Position numbers and translations under genes: made by a program
Shown: piece by piece, positions 500-33,167 of the stretch
Layout of the letters: every line of letters begins with the position of its first letter
Position numbering within the stretch: the first letter of the stretch is position 1
Notes under the pieces: generated by a model
What the model was told of the DNA's origin: nothing
Database searches by the model: none
Seen by the model: the letters and a program-made list of their open reading frames with translations, nothing else
Source: a virus
Reading direction: 5' to 3' (one strand)
Length of the DNA stretch: 34,679 bases
Virus record (IMG/VR): IMGVR_UViG_3300044729_001332
Location: 1-34,679 of that record

Positions 500-2620
500 A
501 TGGTAAGCATTTACCCTCACATCTTCGACACTAAGAACGGCACCGACATCGAACTTATGGAAATCTTGCTCGGAATCAAATCAGGCAGGTGGGAAGATGA
601 CTGCTACCCTATAATGAAGGAAGAAGATAAGGTAAAGCGTAATGAACTCAAAAAGAAGGTTCCTTATTATACCGTATCCGGTACATTTGAAGTAAGAAGC
701 AATAACGGATTACGCAAGCATTCTGGATTCATATCCATAGACTTTGATAACGTCGAGAATCTTGAGGCCTGCATTGAAATAATAAAGAAAGACCCATACA
801 CATTCGCGGTATTCAAATCGGTTTCACATACTGGGTTCTGCGTTATCGTCAAGATAGACCCTGCACGGCATCTGGAATCATTCGAGGGCCTCGGAAACTA
901 TTATTTCAATATCCTACGCCATCCAATAGATCAGGCTTGCAAGGATGTGAGCAGGCCCAGATATGTATCCTTCGACCCTGACTGCTTTATAAATAGTAAG
1001 AGCAAGCAGTTCCGTGACTATCCAAAAAGAGAAACGAAAGAGGCAAAGCATCAGCGCACGCGTGTAGATTATCTGCATACAGCAAACAAGTTCAGCCGCA
1101 TCATCGCTTCCATAGATAAGGATATCACCGGAGATTATGCCCAGTGGCGAGATATAGGCTTCGCCATAGGTTCGGAATATAAGGAATCAGGGGAAGATTA
1201 CTTCCACCAGCTATCGCAGTTTTCACCGAAATACGACCGGGCAACTACTTCACGACAGTACAAGCTTTGCTGCAAGACTGGTGAAATAACTATCAGCACA
1301 TTTTACTATTATGCGAAGCTATACGGTTTTAAGGTTACGACCGATGATGAAAAGAAGACGGCGGAGATAGCTTACTATGCCAAAATATCAAACAAAAAAA
1401 AGGAGTTCGTTACACAAAAACTGAATGAAATCGGTATCAAACCGGATGACCAGATAATCGAAGCGGTCAACAAGTCCAATACCTACACTCCGATAGATAC
1501 CTCACCGAAGGCCAAGCTGGATTTGGATGCAGTCATTACATGGATTACTACAAACACCAGTATAAAAAAAAACGAGATATCCCGGTTCTACGAGCAGGAT
1601 GGCAAGGTGCTTGAAACGGAGGACTTTAACTCCATCTTCATTCAGGCTAAGAAAACCTTTGAAAAGCTAAATCGCGAGATATTCGATACCATCATATTCT
1701 CAGACAACACTCAATCTTATAACCCGATAAAGATATACATCGATAGTCTTGTCTGGGATGAGCGCGACCGGATTACAGAGCTTTGTCAATCCATTACATC
1801 CAATACCGGAGACTTCGATTACCGTAAGGTACTCCTGCAATCTTGGCTGCTTGGCATTATAGAATCCATATACACAGATGAGCCGAACATTCTTCAGCTG
1901 ATCCTTGCCGGGAAGCAGAACACCGGGAAATCTGTATTCTTCAAAAACCTACTGCCTGCTCCATTAAAGAAATACTTTGCCTTCAGCCAACTCGACAAGG
2001 GTAAGGATGACGAGCTACTCATGTGCCAGAAGCTTATAATTCTCGATGACGAATACTCCGGTAAATCGAAGCAGGATGCCAAGCTTATAAAGCGGCTTCT
2101 ATCTGCTCCGCTATTCGACCTGCGTGAGCCATACGGTAAAAAGAACATAACGCTAAAGCGGATGGCTTCGCTTTGCGCTACCTCCAACGAGACCCAGCTG
2201 CTTAACGACCCGACCGGGAACCGACGCAATATCATATTTGAAGTTACCGGGCAGTTCGATTATGAGAAATATAATGCCATAGACAAGGAGCAACTATTTG
2301 CACAAATCAAGTGGATGTTTGACAAAGGGTATAAGTCGGCACTAATGCCCAGAATGATTGAGGAAATCAACCTATACACCGGGCAGCACAATAGCGAAAT
2401 CTGCATCGAGGCGGAGCTGGTTAATATGTTCTACGAAGAGCCGGGCATACATGGACAGTATGACTTCCGCACGGCAACACAGATTAAGAACCACATTGAG
2501 AGCAATTCAGTTCAGAAAATATCCATTAAGAAGCTCGGCATGGAGCTAAAGCGACTCGGCTATGAGCGCGTAAAAGTGGAAGGAGTTTACGGATACTACA
2601 TCGGAGAGGTCAGCAGATAA
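500..2620 (+). CDS. Primase-helicase (BT4734/VirE N-terminal domain, PriCT-like, VirE SF3-like ATPase)
   Basis: 706 aa, three parts. Residues about 10-190 resemble the BT4734/VirE N-terminal primase-polymerase-like domain, including a stretch with FISIDFDN near 85-92 as the likely metal-binding acid cluster. Residues about 205-275 (WRDIGFAIGSEY...) look like PriCT-2, a linker domain of primases. Residues about 360-620 are a VirE-type P-loop ATPase with Walker A GKQNTGKS at 471-478, Walker B LIILDDE at 512-518, a sensor-1 stretch ending CATSNE and an arginine-rich GNRRN. The C-terminal 70 residues look like a winged helix. In phages and mobile elements this architecture initiates and unwinds DNA during replication. 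The gene stops directly before the iteron-like region, and its leader (ACACCGAAAACATG) resembles the motif used by minus-strand genes. Confidence 0.9.
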   Translation: MVSIYPHIFDTKNGTDIELMEILLGIKSGRWEDDCYPIMKEEDKVKRNELKKKVPYYTVSGTFEVRSNNGLRKHSGFISIDFDNVENLEACIEIIKKDPYTFAVFKSVSHTGFCVIVKIDPARHLESFEGLGNYYFNILRHPIDQACKDVSRPRYVSFDPDCFINSKSKQFRDYPKRETKEAKHQRTRVDYLHTANKFSRIIASIDKDITGDYAQWRDIGFAIGSEYKESGEDYFHQLSQFSPKYDRATTSRQYKLCCKTGEITISTFYYYAKLYGFKVTTDDEKKTAEIAYYAKISNKKKEFVTQKLNEIGIKPDDQIIEAVNKSNTYTPIDTSPKAKLDLDAVITWITTNTSIKKNEISRFYEQDGKVLETEDFNSIFIQAKKTFEKLNREIFDTIIFSDNTQSYNPIKIYIDSLVWDERDRITELCQSITSNTGDFDYRKVLLQSWLLGIIESIYTDEPNILQLILAGKQNTGKSVFFKNLLPAPLKKYFAFSQLDKGKDDELLMCQKLIILDDEYSGKSKQDAKLIKRLLSAPLFDLREPYGKKNITLKRMASLCATSNETQLLNDPTGNRRNIIFEVTGQFDYEKYNAIDKEQLFAQIKWMFDKGYKSALMPRMIEEINLYTGQHNSEICIEAELVNMFYEEPGIHGQYDFRTATQIKNHIESNSVQKISIKKLGMELKRLGYERVKVEGVYGYYIGEVSR

Positions 2621-2650: not shown

Positions 2651-2679
2651 CGGGTAAGATAAAAAAACTATCTTACCCG
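2651..2679. repeat. Perfect hairpin of the GGGTAAGATA motif, copy 1
   Basis: CGGGTAAGATA, seven bases, then its exact reverse complement. The loop is AAAAAAC. It is followed by CTTGTATTTT, so it could also terminate the primase-helicase transcript, but the motif is shared with copies that do not form terminators. Confidence 0.75.
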
Positions 2680-2869
2680 CTTGTATTTTATTGATAATCA
2701 TAGTACTTATAAAGGTTGGGTAAGATAGGTAAGATAAAGTTATTAATTAGGAGAGAATATTATTATACACACAGTAATATTTTTTTTTTTCTCTGGTAGA
2801 CTTTTCAAGCATGATTTTACCTTTATCTTACCCAGCCTTGAAATTCAGTCTGGTATTGGTTTTTAGCTT

Positions 2870-2897
2870 GGGTAAGATAGAAAAAATTATCTTACCC
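2870..2897. repeat. Perfect hairpin of the GGGTAAGATA motif, copy 2
   Basis: GGGTAAGATA, loop GAAAAAAT, then the exact reverse complement. Same architecture and near-identical loop composition as the hairpin at 2651, with no downstream T run, which argues against a simple terminator. Confidence 0.75.
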
Positions 2898-6016: not shown

Positions 6017-7216
6017 ATGATTTACAGAAACATTACAGAAATAAAGCCAAACCCAAAGAATCCGCGCACCATCCGTGACGATAAATTCAAAAAATTGGTC
6101 AAGTCAATTCATGACTTTCCGCAAATGTTGGATAAACGGCCTTTGGTGTGCTTCACCGATACCGATGGCAAATTGGTTGTGTTAGGTGGTAATATGCGAT
6201 TAAAGGCGGCAAAGGAGGTTGGGTTGAAGGAATTGCCAGTTGTATTAGCGGACGATTGGACCGAGGAACAAAAGGCGCAATTTTTGATAAAGGATAATGT
6301 TGGATTCGGCGAGTGGAACTGGGATGAATTAAAAGCCGATTGGGATTTGGAAAAATTGGACGATTGGGGATTGGATGTGCCGGATTTTGAAAGTAAACAA
6401 CTTGAAGCACAGGATGATGACTACGAGATGCCGGATGAAATTAAAACAGATATCGTACTTGGTGATTTGTTTGAGATAGGAGAACACCGTTTAGTTTGTG
6501 GGGATAGTACAGATAGCGACCAAGTAGCAAAGTTAATGAATGGGGAAAAGGCTGATATGGTATTTACTGACCCTCCTTACTTAATGGATTTTGATGGTGG
6601 AATGACTACAAATAAAGAAGGTAATTGGACTAAATCTTTTAACGCATCTCACGGAGGAATTAAAAACGATAAAATGGATAAATCTAAAGAAGCTGATTTT
6701 TTAGATAGTATAAATGCAAACATTCAATTATTTACAAAAGGTGCTTTTTACATTTGTTTTTATAGATTAAAACTTGGTGATTATTTCAGTTCTTTGGATA
6801 GAACTGGATTAAAAACAAGAACTTTAATTACTTGGAATAAAGGTAACCATACAATGAGCAATTCAGATTATTGGAGTAAATGCGAACATATATTTTATGG
6901 TTGGATTGACGAGCATAATTGGTATGGAGGCAATGATTATGATATTTGGGATATTTCAAGAACACAAAAAAACGATTTGCACCCAACAATGAAACCTATT
7001 CCTTTATGCGAGAAAGCAATAAATAATTCAAGTAAAGAAAATAATATAGTATTTGATTTATTTTTAGGTTCAGGTTCTACAATGGTAGCATCACACCAAC
7101 TTAAACGCAAATGCTACGGCATGGAATTAGATCCAAAATATTGTCAGGTTATTATTGATCGTATGCGCAAACTTGATCCGACATTAACAATAAAAAAGAA
7201 CGGCAATGCCATTTAA
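6017..7216 (+). CDS. ParB-like domain fused to DNA (adenine-N6/cytosine-N4) methyltransferase
   Basis: 399 aa. Residues 1-100 are a ParB/Srx-like domain with the GGNMRLKAA motif at 58-66. Residues about 145-390 are an N4/N6 methyltransferase of the beta class: catalytic DPPY at 185-188 comes before the AdoMet-binding FLGSGS at 349-354, followed by YGMELDPKYC. Such fusions are widespread in phages; they methylate phage DNA, probably to block host restriction. Codon and base use differ from the neighbours: positions 6661-6720 have 13 G+C in 60, against 29 in 60 at 8041-8100, so at least the target-recognition stretch looks acquired. The gene overlaps the small terminase by 11 bases. No restriction enzyme is seen. 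Confidence 0.9.
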   Translation: MIYRNITEIKPNPKNPRTIRDDKFKKLVKSIHDFPQMLDKRPLVCFTDTDGKLVVLGGNMRLKAAKEVGLKELPVVLADDWTEEQKAQFLIKDNVGFGEWNWDELKADWDLEKLDDWGLDVPDFESKQLEAQDDDYEMPDEIKTDIVLGDLFEIGEHRLVCGDSTDSDQVAKLMNGEKADMVFTDPPYLMDFDGGMTTNKEGNWTKSFNASHGGIKNDKMDKSKEADFLDSINANIQLFTKGAFYICFYRLKLGDYFSSLDRTGLKTRTLITWNKGNHTMSNSDYWSKCEHIFYGWIDEHNWYGGNDYDIWDISRTQKNDLHPTMKPIPLCEKAINNSSKENNIVFDLFLGSGSTMVASHQLKRKCYGMELDPKYCQVIIDRMRKLDPTLTIKKNGNAI

Positions 7217-31424: not shown

Positions 31425-31606
31425 GGTTTTAGTTGTTTAAGTTTTTGAATATAAAGTATTGCGTCCATAAGTTCTTCCTGAAGATGGTTCAGGAAATCAT
31501 CATCGTTGTTCTGCTCCAGCGTAGTGCCGTACTTCTTGATGCCGACCTCGCTGCGGTGCTTGAATTTCTCGATGACAAGCTCTACTATTTTGTCTTTCAA
31601 TTCCAT
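31421..31606 (-). CDS. MazG-like nucleotide pyrophosphohydrolase-type protein
   Basis: 61 aa from ATG at 31606; a longer frame reaching 31717 has an Arg/His-rich N-terminus that overlaps the winged-helix gene and is rejected. FKHRSEVGIKKYGTTLEQ, then FLNHLQEELMDAILYIQKL gives the EExxD metal motif and the helical layout of the short phage MazG-like (dATP/dGTP-type) proteins. Full MazG proteins are larger, so this is a minimal subunit. It may clean up nucleotide pools or block host signalling; substrate unknown. It starts ten bases inside the preceding gene's end. Confidence 0.65.
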   Translation of the reverse strand: MELKDKIVELVIEKFKHRSEVGIKKYGTTLEQNNDDDFLNHLQEELMDAILYIQKLKQLKP

Positions 31607-31977
31607 TGGTAACCTACTCCTTTTACTGTTTTGATTGATCCTTTCGGGAATACCTTGCGAATGGCTGCGATGTGTACGTCTATGGTACGCTCGCCTACGA
31701 TTACTTCGCTTCCCCATATCTCATCGAGTATCTCATCCCGGCGGACAATGCGGCCAGCGTTTGCTATCAGGTAGTAAGTCAGGTCAAGTACCTTTTTGGG
31801 CATGCGGATTTCATGTCCAGAAGCATTGATGGTATAAGTTTGCAAGTCTACCGTTATGCCGTTTACTTCCACTTGCGTAGGTTTCTTCGGCATTGTGGAT
31901 TCTATGAGCTGGATGATCTCGCCTTTCGTGTAGTAGGTTTTTTCGGAGTTCTGGATTCTTTGGAGGATTGAGTTCAT
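31597..31977 (-). CDS. Stand-alone OmpR/PhoB-type winged-helix regulator
   Basis: 126 aa. Residues about 38-126 are a complete Trans_reg_C winged helix: GITVDLQTYTI strands, the recognition region (MPKKVLDLTYYLIANAGRIV, RRDEILDEIWG, ERTIDVHIAAIRKV), and the wing GSIKTVKGVGYQW. There is no receiver domain, only a 35-residue N-terminal helix (LQRIQNSEKTYYTKGEIIQL). So it cannot respond to a kinase in the usual way and probably binds DNA constitutively. Its start overlaps the stop of the 54-aa gene as ATGA, and its leader has the shared AAACCGAAAGCC motif. Confidence 0.85.
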   Translation of the reverse strand: MNSILQRIQNSEKTYYTKGEIIQLIESTMPKKPTQVEVNGITVDLQTYTINASGHEIRMPKKVLDLTYYLIANAGRIVRRDEILDEIWGSEVIVGERTIDVHIAAIRKVFPKGSIKTVKGVGYQWN

Positions 31978-32138
31978 GGCTTTCGGTTTTTAAGGTTATC
32001 ATTATAGAAGCGCATAAGTTCACGCAGGTCGCTTTTCGTTAGCTGACCTTTTAACTCTTCTTCCCTCTCCTCCATCTCTATCGACCAGATTATAGCGGCC
32101 GCAGTGAGGACAACAACTACTATTAAAATGTAAATCAT
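31974..32138 (-). CDS. 54-aa single-TM peptide overlapping the DnaA-domain gene
   Basis: An ORF too short for normal listing: IYILIVVVVLTAAAIIWS membrane segment (2-19), an acidic turn (IEMEEREEE), and a charged amphipathic helix (about 29-54) ending NLKNRKP. It lies out of frame in the last 119 bases of the DnaA-IV gene. Its TGA overlaps the winged-helix ATG (ATGA), which suggests real coupled translation. The companion frame gives the cysteine-rich tail of the DnaA-IV protein, so one of the two frames may be the passenger. I consider the peptide real but not certain. Confidence 0.55.
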   Translation of the reverse strand: MIYILIVVVVLTAAAIIWSIEMEEREEELKGQLTKSDLRELMRFYNDNLKNRKP

Positions 32139-32436
32139 TGATATGTTTTTTAAGGTGATTGATTAATTCTTCGTATTCAAGTGAAAGCTCCGGGTAAACA
32201 TCCATAAGATTATTAAGCTTACTAATTCCGTGGATTATGGTAGTGTGATCCTTGTCAAATAGTCTACCTATCTGCTGAAAGGATATCATGCAATGCTGGC
32301 GCAATGCTTTGTATGTCATCTGCCGCATCTGGACACGAGTACGAGTGCGCTCATCTTTAAGAAGGAAAGACACATCTACATTGAAAAAGTTAGCAGCTTC
32401 CTTGATTATGTTTTCCGGTGTTCGTAATTTCTTCAT
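32020..32436 (-). CDS. Stand-alone DnaA domain IV-like DNA-binding protein with Cys-rich tail
   Basis: 138 aa. Residues about 5-95 match the C-terminal domain of DnaA: TRVQMRQMTYKALRQHCMIS (about 33-52), FQQIGRLFDKDHTTIIHGIS (about 53-72), the DHTT signature at 63-66 and the following helix. There is no AAA+ domain. Residues 107-116 (SCCPHCGRYN) may bind zinc. The protein could bind DnaA-like boxes at the phage origin, or compete with host DnaA. The tail from residue about 100 overlaps the 54-aa gene out of frame, so its status is uncertain. The terminator before it separates it from recT. Confidence 0.75.
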   Translation of the reverse strand: MKKLRTPENIIKEAANFFNVDVSFLLKDERTRTRVQMRQMTYKALRQHCMISFQQIGRLFDKDHTTIIHGISKLNNLMDVYPELSLEYEELINHLKKHINDLHFNSSCCPHCGRYNLVDRDGGEGRRVKRSANEKRPA

Positions 32437-32447
32437 TATGGAGATTT

Positions 32448-32473
32448 AAAAGCAGCCGACCGGAGCCGGCTGC
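32448..32473 (-). terminator. Terminator between recT and the DnaA-domain gene
   Basis: On the minus strand GCAGCCG pairs with CGGCTGC (7 bp) around eight bases, followed by TTTTAAAT. It lies between the RecT stop at 32493 and the DnaA-IV start at 32436, so the downstream block probably needs read-through or its own promoter. Confidence 0.65.
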
Positions 32474-32492
32474 ATGGTTAATCAAGGAGGGG

Positions 32493-33167
32493 TTACCGTG
32501 CGTTTTCTTCGTACCGGCTTGCTGCACTGTTCAACATGGTAAGCATATCGTCTGTCAAGCTATACTTTGAAGTAACGCGCTGGATGACATTAGGCTGACC
32601 GTCATTGATTGCGGCAATAGCCTTCAGGTACACATCATCCGGAATCATGGGCAGCTCCTTTACTTCAACATGCTGGATGTCTTCGGTTACAACCTGCTGC
32701 ATCTCTTCGGGTACATAGACCGGGCCTGCGAATACATCCGGTGTAAACCACTTCACGCCGTTACTGATGGCGCGTGCGAAGAGCATGTTCTTGGGGAACT
32801 TGTCGAGGTTCTTGGTACCTGCTTTCTTCGCATCTTCATAACTGAAGGAACTATTACCGATTTTCTCACTGCCCTCATAAAAGTCGATGGAGCAGTGCTT
32901 GTCGGTATTTTCCACTACCCTATAATTATACTTGCCAGATGACTTGACCGCTGAAGCGATAAGACCTGCGCCGATGACTGGCTTTCCGGCGATGATGTGG
33001 ATTCCGGAGATGGAGGCGAGCGGTGGCAGGCCCAGCTCGTTTCCTGCGCAAATCTTTACCATTGCCTGCGCAGCACTTTTAATGTCGGCGAATAAGCCGG
33101 ATTTGAAAAACTGGTCTGCGAGCATCATGGCATCGTTCGGAGCGATGCGTTGGATTTGATTGTTCAT
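32493..33167 (-). CDS. recT: RecT-like single-strand annealing protein
   Basis: 224 aa. The core ELGLPPLASISGIHIIAGKP, VIGAGLIASAVKSSGKYNYR and NLDKFPKNMLFARAISNGVK, followed by WFTPDVFAGPVYVPEEM, is the RecT/Redbeta-type pattern of Bacteroidota phages. RecT proteins bind single-stranded DNA and anneal complementary strands in phage recombination and repair. It has a basic/charged C-terminus typical of the family. I see no partner exonuclease of the RecE/Redalpha type, but the PD-(D/E)XK protein at 23 could be unrelated. The gene before it is a conserved neighbour. Confidence 0.9.
   Translation of the reverse strand: MNNQIQRIAPNDAMMLADQFFKSGLFADIKSAAQAMVKICAGNELGLPPLASISGIHIIAGKPVIGAGLIASAVKSSGKYNYRVVENTDKHCSIDFYEGSEKIGNSSFSYEDAKKAGTKNLDKFPKNMLFARAISNGVKWFTPDVFAGPVYVPEEMQQVVTEDIQHVEVKELPMIPDDVYLKAIAAINDGQPNVIQRVTSKYSLTDDMLTMLNSAASRYEENAR

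Follow-up and report, generated by a model that had tools for sequence, protein, structure and literature searches.

The window, by which we mean the whole 34,679-nucleotide viral record IMGVR_UViG_3300044729_001332, encodes a small protein that the original prediction described as DnaA domain IV without the AAA+ domain, raising the question of what a phage would do with the DNA-binding end of an initiator alone. The gene and its key codons lie at the following positions.

32020–32436, minus strand: stand-alone gene for a DnaA domain IV (Bac_DnaA_C) protein, 138 aa, ATG start
32218–32418, minus strand: Bac_DnaA_C domain match (profile positions 1–68)
32347–32349, minus strand: codon of R30, equivalent by alignment to the minor-groove arginine R399 of E. 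coli; arginine in 26 of 30 non-redundant stand-alone proteins
32239–32250, minus strand: codons of D63-H64-T65-T66 in the recognition helix, equivalent by alignment to E. coli D433-H434-T435-T436

The 138-aa protein matched the Pfam profile PF08299 (Bac_DnaA_C) with 57.2 bits (E = 1.7e-15; gathering cut-off, 31.5 bits), residues 7–73 spanning the whole domain (profile positions 1–68/69), and was the only PF08299 match across the 34,679-base record. The NCBIfam DnaA family TIGR00362 aligned over approximately the last 94 of its 437 positions only, scoring 62 bits where the cut-off is 343.9; because this alignment is confined to the C-terminal end and the record holds a single PF08299 match, we conclude that the AAA+ part is absent, and the protein has neither the AAA+ domain nor the whole-protein score of a full-length DnaA initiator. 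Nor did it match NF004687 (PRK06030, a 140-aa hypothetical protein in NCBIfam), to which its homologue in contig L122 scored 22 bits against a cut-off of 181. In a phmmer search the protein matched domain IV of E. coli DnaA (1j1v) at 8.8e-08, and its AlphaFold2 model, with pLDDT of 95–98 across residues 11–100, returned as the two top Foldseek matches the M. tuberculosis DnaA-DBD in complex with box DNA (3pvp; TM 0.92 by target, rmsd 1.0 Å) and 1j1v (TM 0.90 by target, rmsd 1.2 Å), the predicted structure thereby showing a DnaA domain IV fold. The original prediction, which had proposed the Bac_DnaA_C profile comparison as a check, was thus borne out as to a domain IV lacking AAA+, and the DHTT signature that it had named is present at residues 63–66. 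Over 121 codons, the counterpart gene in the near-identical contig L002 differs by 13 synonymous and 7 non-synonymous substitutions (dN/dS 0.13); the reading frame is therefore a real gene and, as judged from these substitutions, is evolving under purifying selection. The C-terminal approximately 17 residues are not conserved, and the L002 gene stops at codon 122. We set aside a C-terminal zinc-hook dimerisation motif (CCPHCG; weak Rad50_zn_hook match, E = 0.06), because this stretch overlaps the start of another gene, is absent from L125 and was modelled with low confidence.

Isolated DnaA domain IV binds DnaA boxes, as seen in structures 1j1v and 3pvp. Alignment to E. coli DnaA paired R30 with R399, R32 with R401, R38 with R407, Q39 with Q408, R46 with K415, Q54 with P423, D63–T66 with D433–T436 and K73 with K443, residues whose DNA-contact roles we take to be those in the 1j1v complex. 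The equivalents of R399, R401, R407, Q408, D433, H434, T435 and T436 are identical in the window protein, in E. coli DnaA and in the DnaA of Chitinophagaceae hosts (31 host sequences). The contact changes are K415 to R and P423 to Q54 (a position at which host DnaA has lysine), and there is a one-residue deletion directly ahead of the recognition helix. Across the non-redundant set of 30 stand-alone proteins, 26 retain R399, 29 retain R407, 29 retain H434 and 29 have T or S at position 436, while positions 395–400 around R399 vary, which argues for selection on the grip on DNA. The base-reading positions are canonical in the window protein and vary in the wider family, where position 435 is T in 13, A in 10 and S in 6 of the 30 proteins and D433 is kept in 19 of 30, suggesting that many family members probably read another sequence.

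Proteins of this kind are already widespread in phages. Up to an E of 0.001, a viral structure library yielded 23 matches, phage proteins of 92–200 aa named 'DnaA C-terminal', and the window protein, likewise a domain IV standing alone in a phage early region, belongs to this known, functionally uncharacterised kind; the literature searched yielded no functional test of stand-alone phage DnaA-IV proteins. The 'DnaA protein' of Cellulophaga phage phi19:3 and its counterparts in Tenacibaculum phage Gundel_1 and Flavobacterium phage tooticki6-1 share the Bac_DnaA_C-like fold and the lack of AAA+; named phage proteins of this type are 16–34% identical to that of the window, and several of the phages infect Bacteroidota. 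In the HTVC010P-type pelagiphages, HTVC204P gp23 and Skadi-4 gp30 (170–178 aa) have a QDHTT helix with the same one-residue deletion and keep the arginine equivalents, and the gene lies downstream of those for a nuclease and a single-strand annealing protein in one operon. Unlike the window protein, however, they carry an N-terminal extension of approximately 80 residues and come from phages of Alphaproteobacteria, and HTVC204P has no annotated primase-helicase or iteron module and no annotated helicase or polymerase. All HTVC010P-related genomes have been reported to encode DnaA (PMC6811365), and Skadi is reported to depend on the DNA polymerase of its host (PMC10504331). Bacterial DnaA (E. 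coli, Chitinophagaceae) shares the domain IV fold and box-contact residues with the window protein, which lacks domains I–III and hence ATP binding, oligomerisation, helicase loading and origin opening by itself. In REP-associated/TIRYT transposases, too, a Bac_DnaA_C domain occurs beyond DnaA and on a mobile element, but there it is fused to an HuH nuclease and the associated repeats are unlike DnaA boxes (PMC6006769).

Within the window the gene follows a recombination gene in the same orientation and is adjoined by a second DNA-binding protein.

32493–33167, minus strand: RecT-like single-strand annealing protein (phrog_561, E = 3.4e-13), directly upstream of the DnaA-IV gene
32452–32473, minus strand: GC-rich 9-bp hairpin with a UCCG loop between the RecT stop and the DnaA-IV start; stem covarying with L122 and L125
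31974–32138, minus strand: predicted 54-aa membrane protein, overlapping the 3′ end of the DnaA-IV gene
31597–31977, minus strand: OmpR/PhoB-type winged-helix (Trans_reg_C) protein without a receiver domain, by profile match

The hairpin recurs in the corresponding intergenic regions (window 32437–32492, minus strand; L122 7477–7531; L125 6013–6066) with UCCG or UUUG loops and a covarying stem (GCAGCCG/CGGCTGC versus GCACCCG/CGGGTGC), is preceded by a kept CCTTGAnnAACCA and had no Rfam match in the window; it is possibly an attenuator or a translational control element. The Trans_reg_C protein, a second case in the window of a DNA-binding domain without its regulatory domain, is kept in G002 and G003 and absent from L002.

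Contig L002 is continuous across the junction of the window's end and start, which implies a circular or circularly permuted genome, and the DnaA-IV and primase-helicase genes are therefore close neighbours on its map. Searching genome contigs with the terminase found relatives in Pollutibacter soli only, a member of the Chitinophagaceae, and the host thus probably lies in or near this family of Bacteroidota. The window DnaA-IV protein had no relatives in the same genome contigs by alignment and no close relatives among annotated phages and plasmids by tblastn. The primase-helicase and iterons that the original prediction had linked to it are present.

500–2620, plus strand: primase-helicase (BT4734-like_N, PriCT_2, VapE-like; by domain matches), weighed as a partner of the DnaA-IV protein
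2653–2896, plus strand: putative replication origin with seven GGTAAGATA iterons in both orientations, which go with the primase-helicase and not with the DnaA-IV gene
2763–2771, plus strand: lone canonical DnaA box, TTATACACA, within the AT-rich middle of the iteron region, shared only with the near-identical L002

The iterons sit in an AT-rich region after the primase-helicase gene; in simulated sequence the most repeated 9-mer reached at most two copies. The chance of at least one box in the iteron region is about 0.03 (0.029 under a dinucleotide model), and, with L002 the only other contig to share it, the single TTATACACA is a weak hint. DnaA boxes (TTATNCACA) were not significantly enriched in the window, with 4 found where 1.2 would be expected (P about 0.07), and no enrichment emerged among the DnaA-IV-bearing phages.

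Relatives separate the DnaA-IV gene from this replication module. Every close relative is a contig that is metagenomic or lacks annotation, and several are fragmentary, so that only the long records allow an absence to be stated firmly; a simple script called the adjoining genes, and those E-values that come from small candidate sets are relative only. In the sister phage G003, most structural proteins are 74–99% and RecT 79% identical to those of the window, and the DnaA-IV protein, at 44%, is the least similar of the shared proteins. G003 keeps the RecT, DnaA-IV and Trans_reg_C series, yet its primase-helicase is an unrelated DUF3987 protein with no significant match to that of the window, its origin region has no GGTAAGATA iterons and no DnaA boxes were found in its non-coding DNA. 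Conversely, L022, L025 and L039, records of 44–68 kb searched whole, have no PF08299 match but encode the same kind of primase-helicase with 6–9 iterons directly downstream (CTTACCACA, CCTTACTAC). In the contigs that we call group C, the DnaA-IV gene, iterons and primase-helicase gene are consecutive and 15 of the 16 contigs share the same iterons (TACCCTTG core); in the exception, L018, the script made no DnaA-IV call and the spacer taken held no iteron. Across nine chosen group C contigs (eight with a DnaA-IV call), the primase-helicases are 80–97% and the DnaA-IV proteins 23–72% identical, and in most of them a terminator-like hairpin parts the DnaA-IV gene from the iterons and primase-helicase. 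In L031, L033, L034 and L040, also of group C, the DnaA-IV gene and a small upstream gene have been mosaically exchanged beside near-identical primase-helicases and iterons.

Putative origins also follow the DUF3987 primase-helicases of L126 (9583–9842, AAAGTTCG), L129 (1930–2217, AAGTTACA) and L133 (12094–12560, AAAGTCAA), with dense 7–10-bp iterons around an AT-rich core, the iteron sequence being unlike in each phage. A reading of ATCCAC repeats in G003 as DnaA-box-like (TATCCAC core) was dropped because the top 9-mer had only two exact copies, no more than in simulated sequence, and because related DUF3987 primase-helicases have these other iterons.

Host chromosomes offered a further comparison. 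When 147 Pollutibacter-family genomes were surveyed with PF08299, 138 had a match, nearly all to full-length DnaA (frames of about 480–530 aa), and at least 12 listed genomes had an extra stand-alone frame of 144–172 aa. We read 14 of the stand-alone loci: most either belong to Mu-like early regions or remnants that encode a MuB-like ATPase, Mu Gam or both, or adjoin a divergent repressor. Transposition is how Mu-like elements replicate. Among these Chitinophagaceae loci (L170–L183), the DnaA-IV gene sits between MuB and Gam in early regions comprising transposase, MuB-like ATPase and Gam, and some resemble isolated remnants beside a divergent repressor.

The original prediction had proposed that the DnaA-IV protein is the recognition part of a compact replicon, with the primase-helicase as motor and the iterons, as the phage's own origin repeats, among its possible targets. 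Both components do occur together in one phage, and genes and iterons are adjacent in group C; but where an iteron-binding initiator and its iterons would change together, the iterons instead track the primase-helicase, switching with it, persisting without any DnaA-IV gene and staying constant while the DnaA-IV protein changes, and GGTAAGATA is unlike the DnaA box expected from the DHTT/R399 set. The comparisons of G003, of L022, L025 and L039, of group C and of the Mu-like loci together argue strongly that the protein is not an iteron reader, a role that we now regard as very improbable, and at the level of gene content and sequence they show it to be independent of the phage iterons and primase-helicase. 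The replicon proposal is contradicted by all four, and its suggested check, whether relatives keep the gene with the same primase-helicase, is answered by G003, which swaps the primase-helicase, and by L022, L025 and L039, which lack the DnaA-IV gene. Alternatively, the protein might be an accessory origin factor that sits on the single TTATACACA and aids loading of the primase-helicase or host replisome. That this box falls inside the AT-rich centre between flanking iterons (chance probability about 0.03) would fit such a role, as would the group C gene lying immediately before the iterons and primase-helicase, and the 170–178-aa pelagiphage protein is a candidate initiator because HTVC204P has no annotated helicase or polymerase. 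The box, however, is common only to L002; no TTATNCACA occurs within 700 bases downstream of the relatives' primase-helicase genes, save one at +669 in L026, nor up to 1,500 bases upstream or in the corresponding region of G003; L022, L025 and L039 replicate without any DnaA-IV gene; and Mu-like prophages carry one while needing no such origin. We therefore consider an accessory origin role unlikely.

Our preferred reading, held tentatively, is that the protein binds DnaA boxes as a competitor or regulator, is made with the early recombination genes and acts separately from the iterons and primase-helicase. A single DnaA-type DNA-binding module, probably expressed early, would bind DnaA-box-like 9-mers (TTATNCACA or a close variant), inserting R30 into the minor groove and the DHTT helix into the major groove. 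Because AAA+ is absent, it would occupy the site without forming a DnaA filament or opening DNA, and could thus compete or regulate at boxes in host oriC, in DnaA-controlled promoters and possibly at the single box in the phage origin. The kept box-contact residues are compatible with exclusion or recruitment of host DnaA, and the gene recurs in early-operon settings, beside RecT, beside MuB/Gam in Mu-like prophages and, in pelagiphages, after the nuclease and annealing-protein genes. Against competition stand the P423-to-Q54 change, the residue missing before the recognition helix and the lack of significant box enrichment; moreover, a conserved host target would not obviously cause such wide divergence in the family. 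The main alternative, possible though rather doubtful in our estimate, is an early regulator of phage transcription whose DnaA-type helix–turn–helix has drifted from DnaA-box specificity and reads different sequences in related phages, as phage repressors and Cro-like proteins do. It would account for a DnaA-IV protein that diverges far faster than its neighbours, both in G003 and in group C, and for the variable base-reading positions; the gene is transcribed divergently from the RecT/replication genes in G040 and G024, adjoins divergent repressor genes in Chitinophagaceae chromosomes and is parted from the primase-helicase by the group C hairpin, and the REP-type transposases link the same domain to targets unlike DnaA boxes (PMC6006769). 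Yet the window protein keeps the canonical DHTT and R399/R407/Q408, so that drift is not evident, and no operator-like repeat was found near the gene.

If competition with host DnaA is what the protein does, it would provide a simple, ATPase-free means to stop or re-time host replication. Its carriers span VapE and DUF3987 primase-helicases, Mu-like transposition and host-replisome-dependent pelagiphages, and one speculative extension, which we hold with little confidence, is that stand-alone DnaA-IV proteins are fast-diversifying phage regulators or decoys that seize DnaA-box-type sites for control of host initiation or of the lytic programme across these unrelated replication modes. Annotations of 'DnaA' or 'replication initiation' made from a Bac_DnaA_C domain are common in phages, including the HTVC010P-type pelagiphages; in Bacteroidota phages, our comparisons suggest, the name misleads, the replication module and its iterons running independently.

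Elsewhere in the window, positions 6017–7216 encode a ParB_N domain fused to an N6/N4 DNA methylase. Methylase genes also lie at the boundary of the lysis genes and early operon in L002 (6507–7592, recognised by eye only) and L125 (3468–4562, C5-type by Pfam) and not at that place in the window, this boundary apparently being an insertion hot spot.
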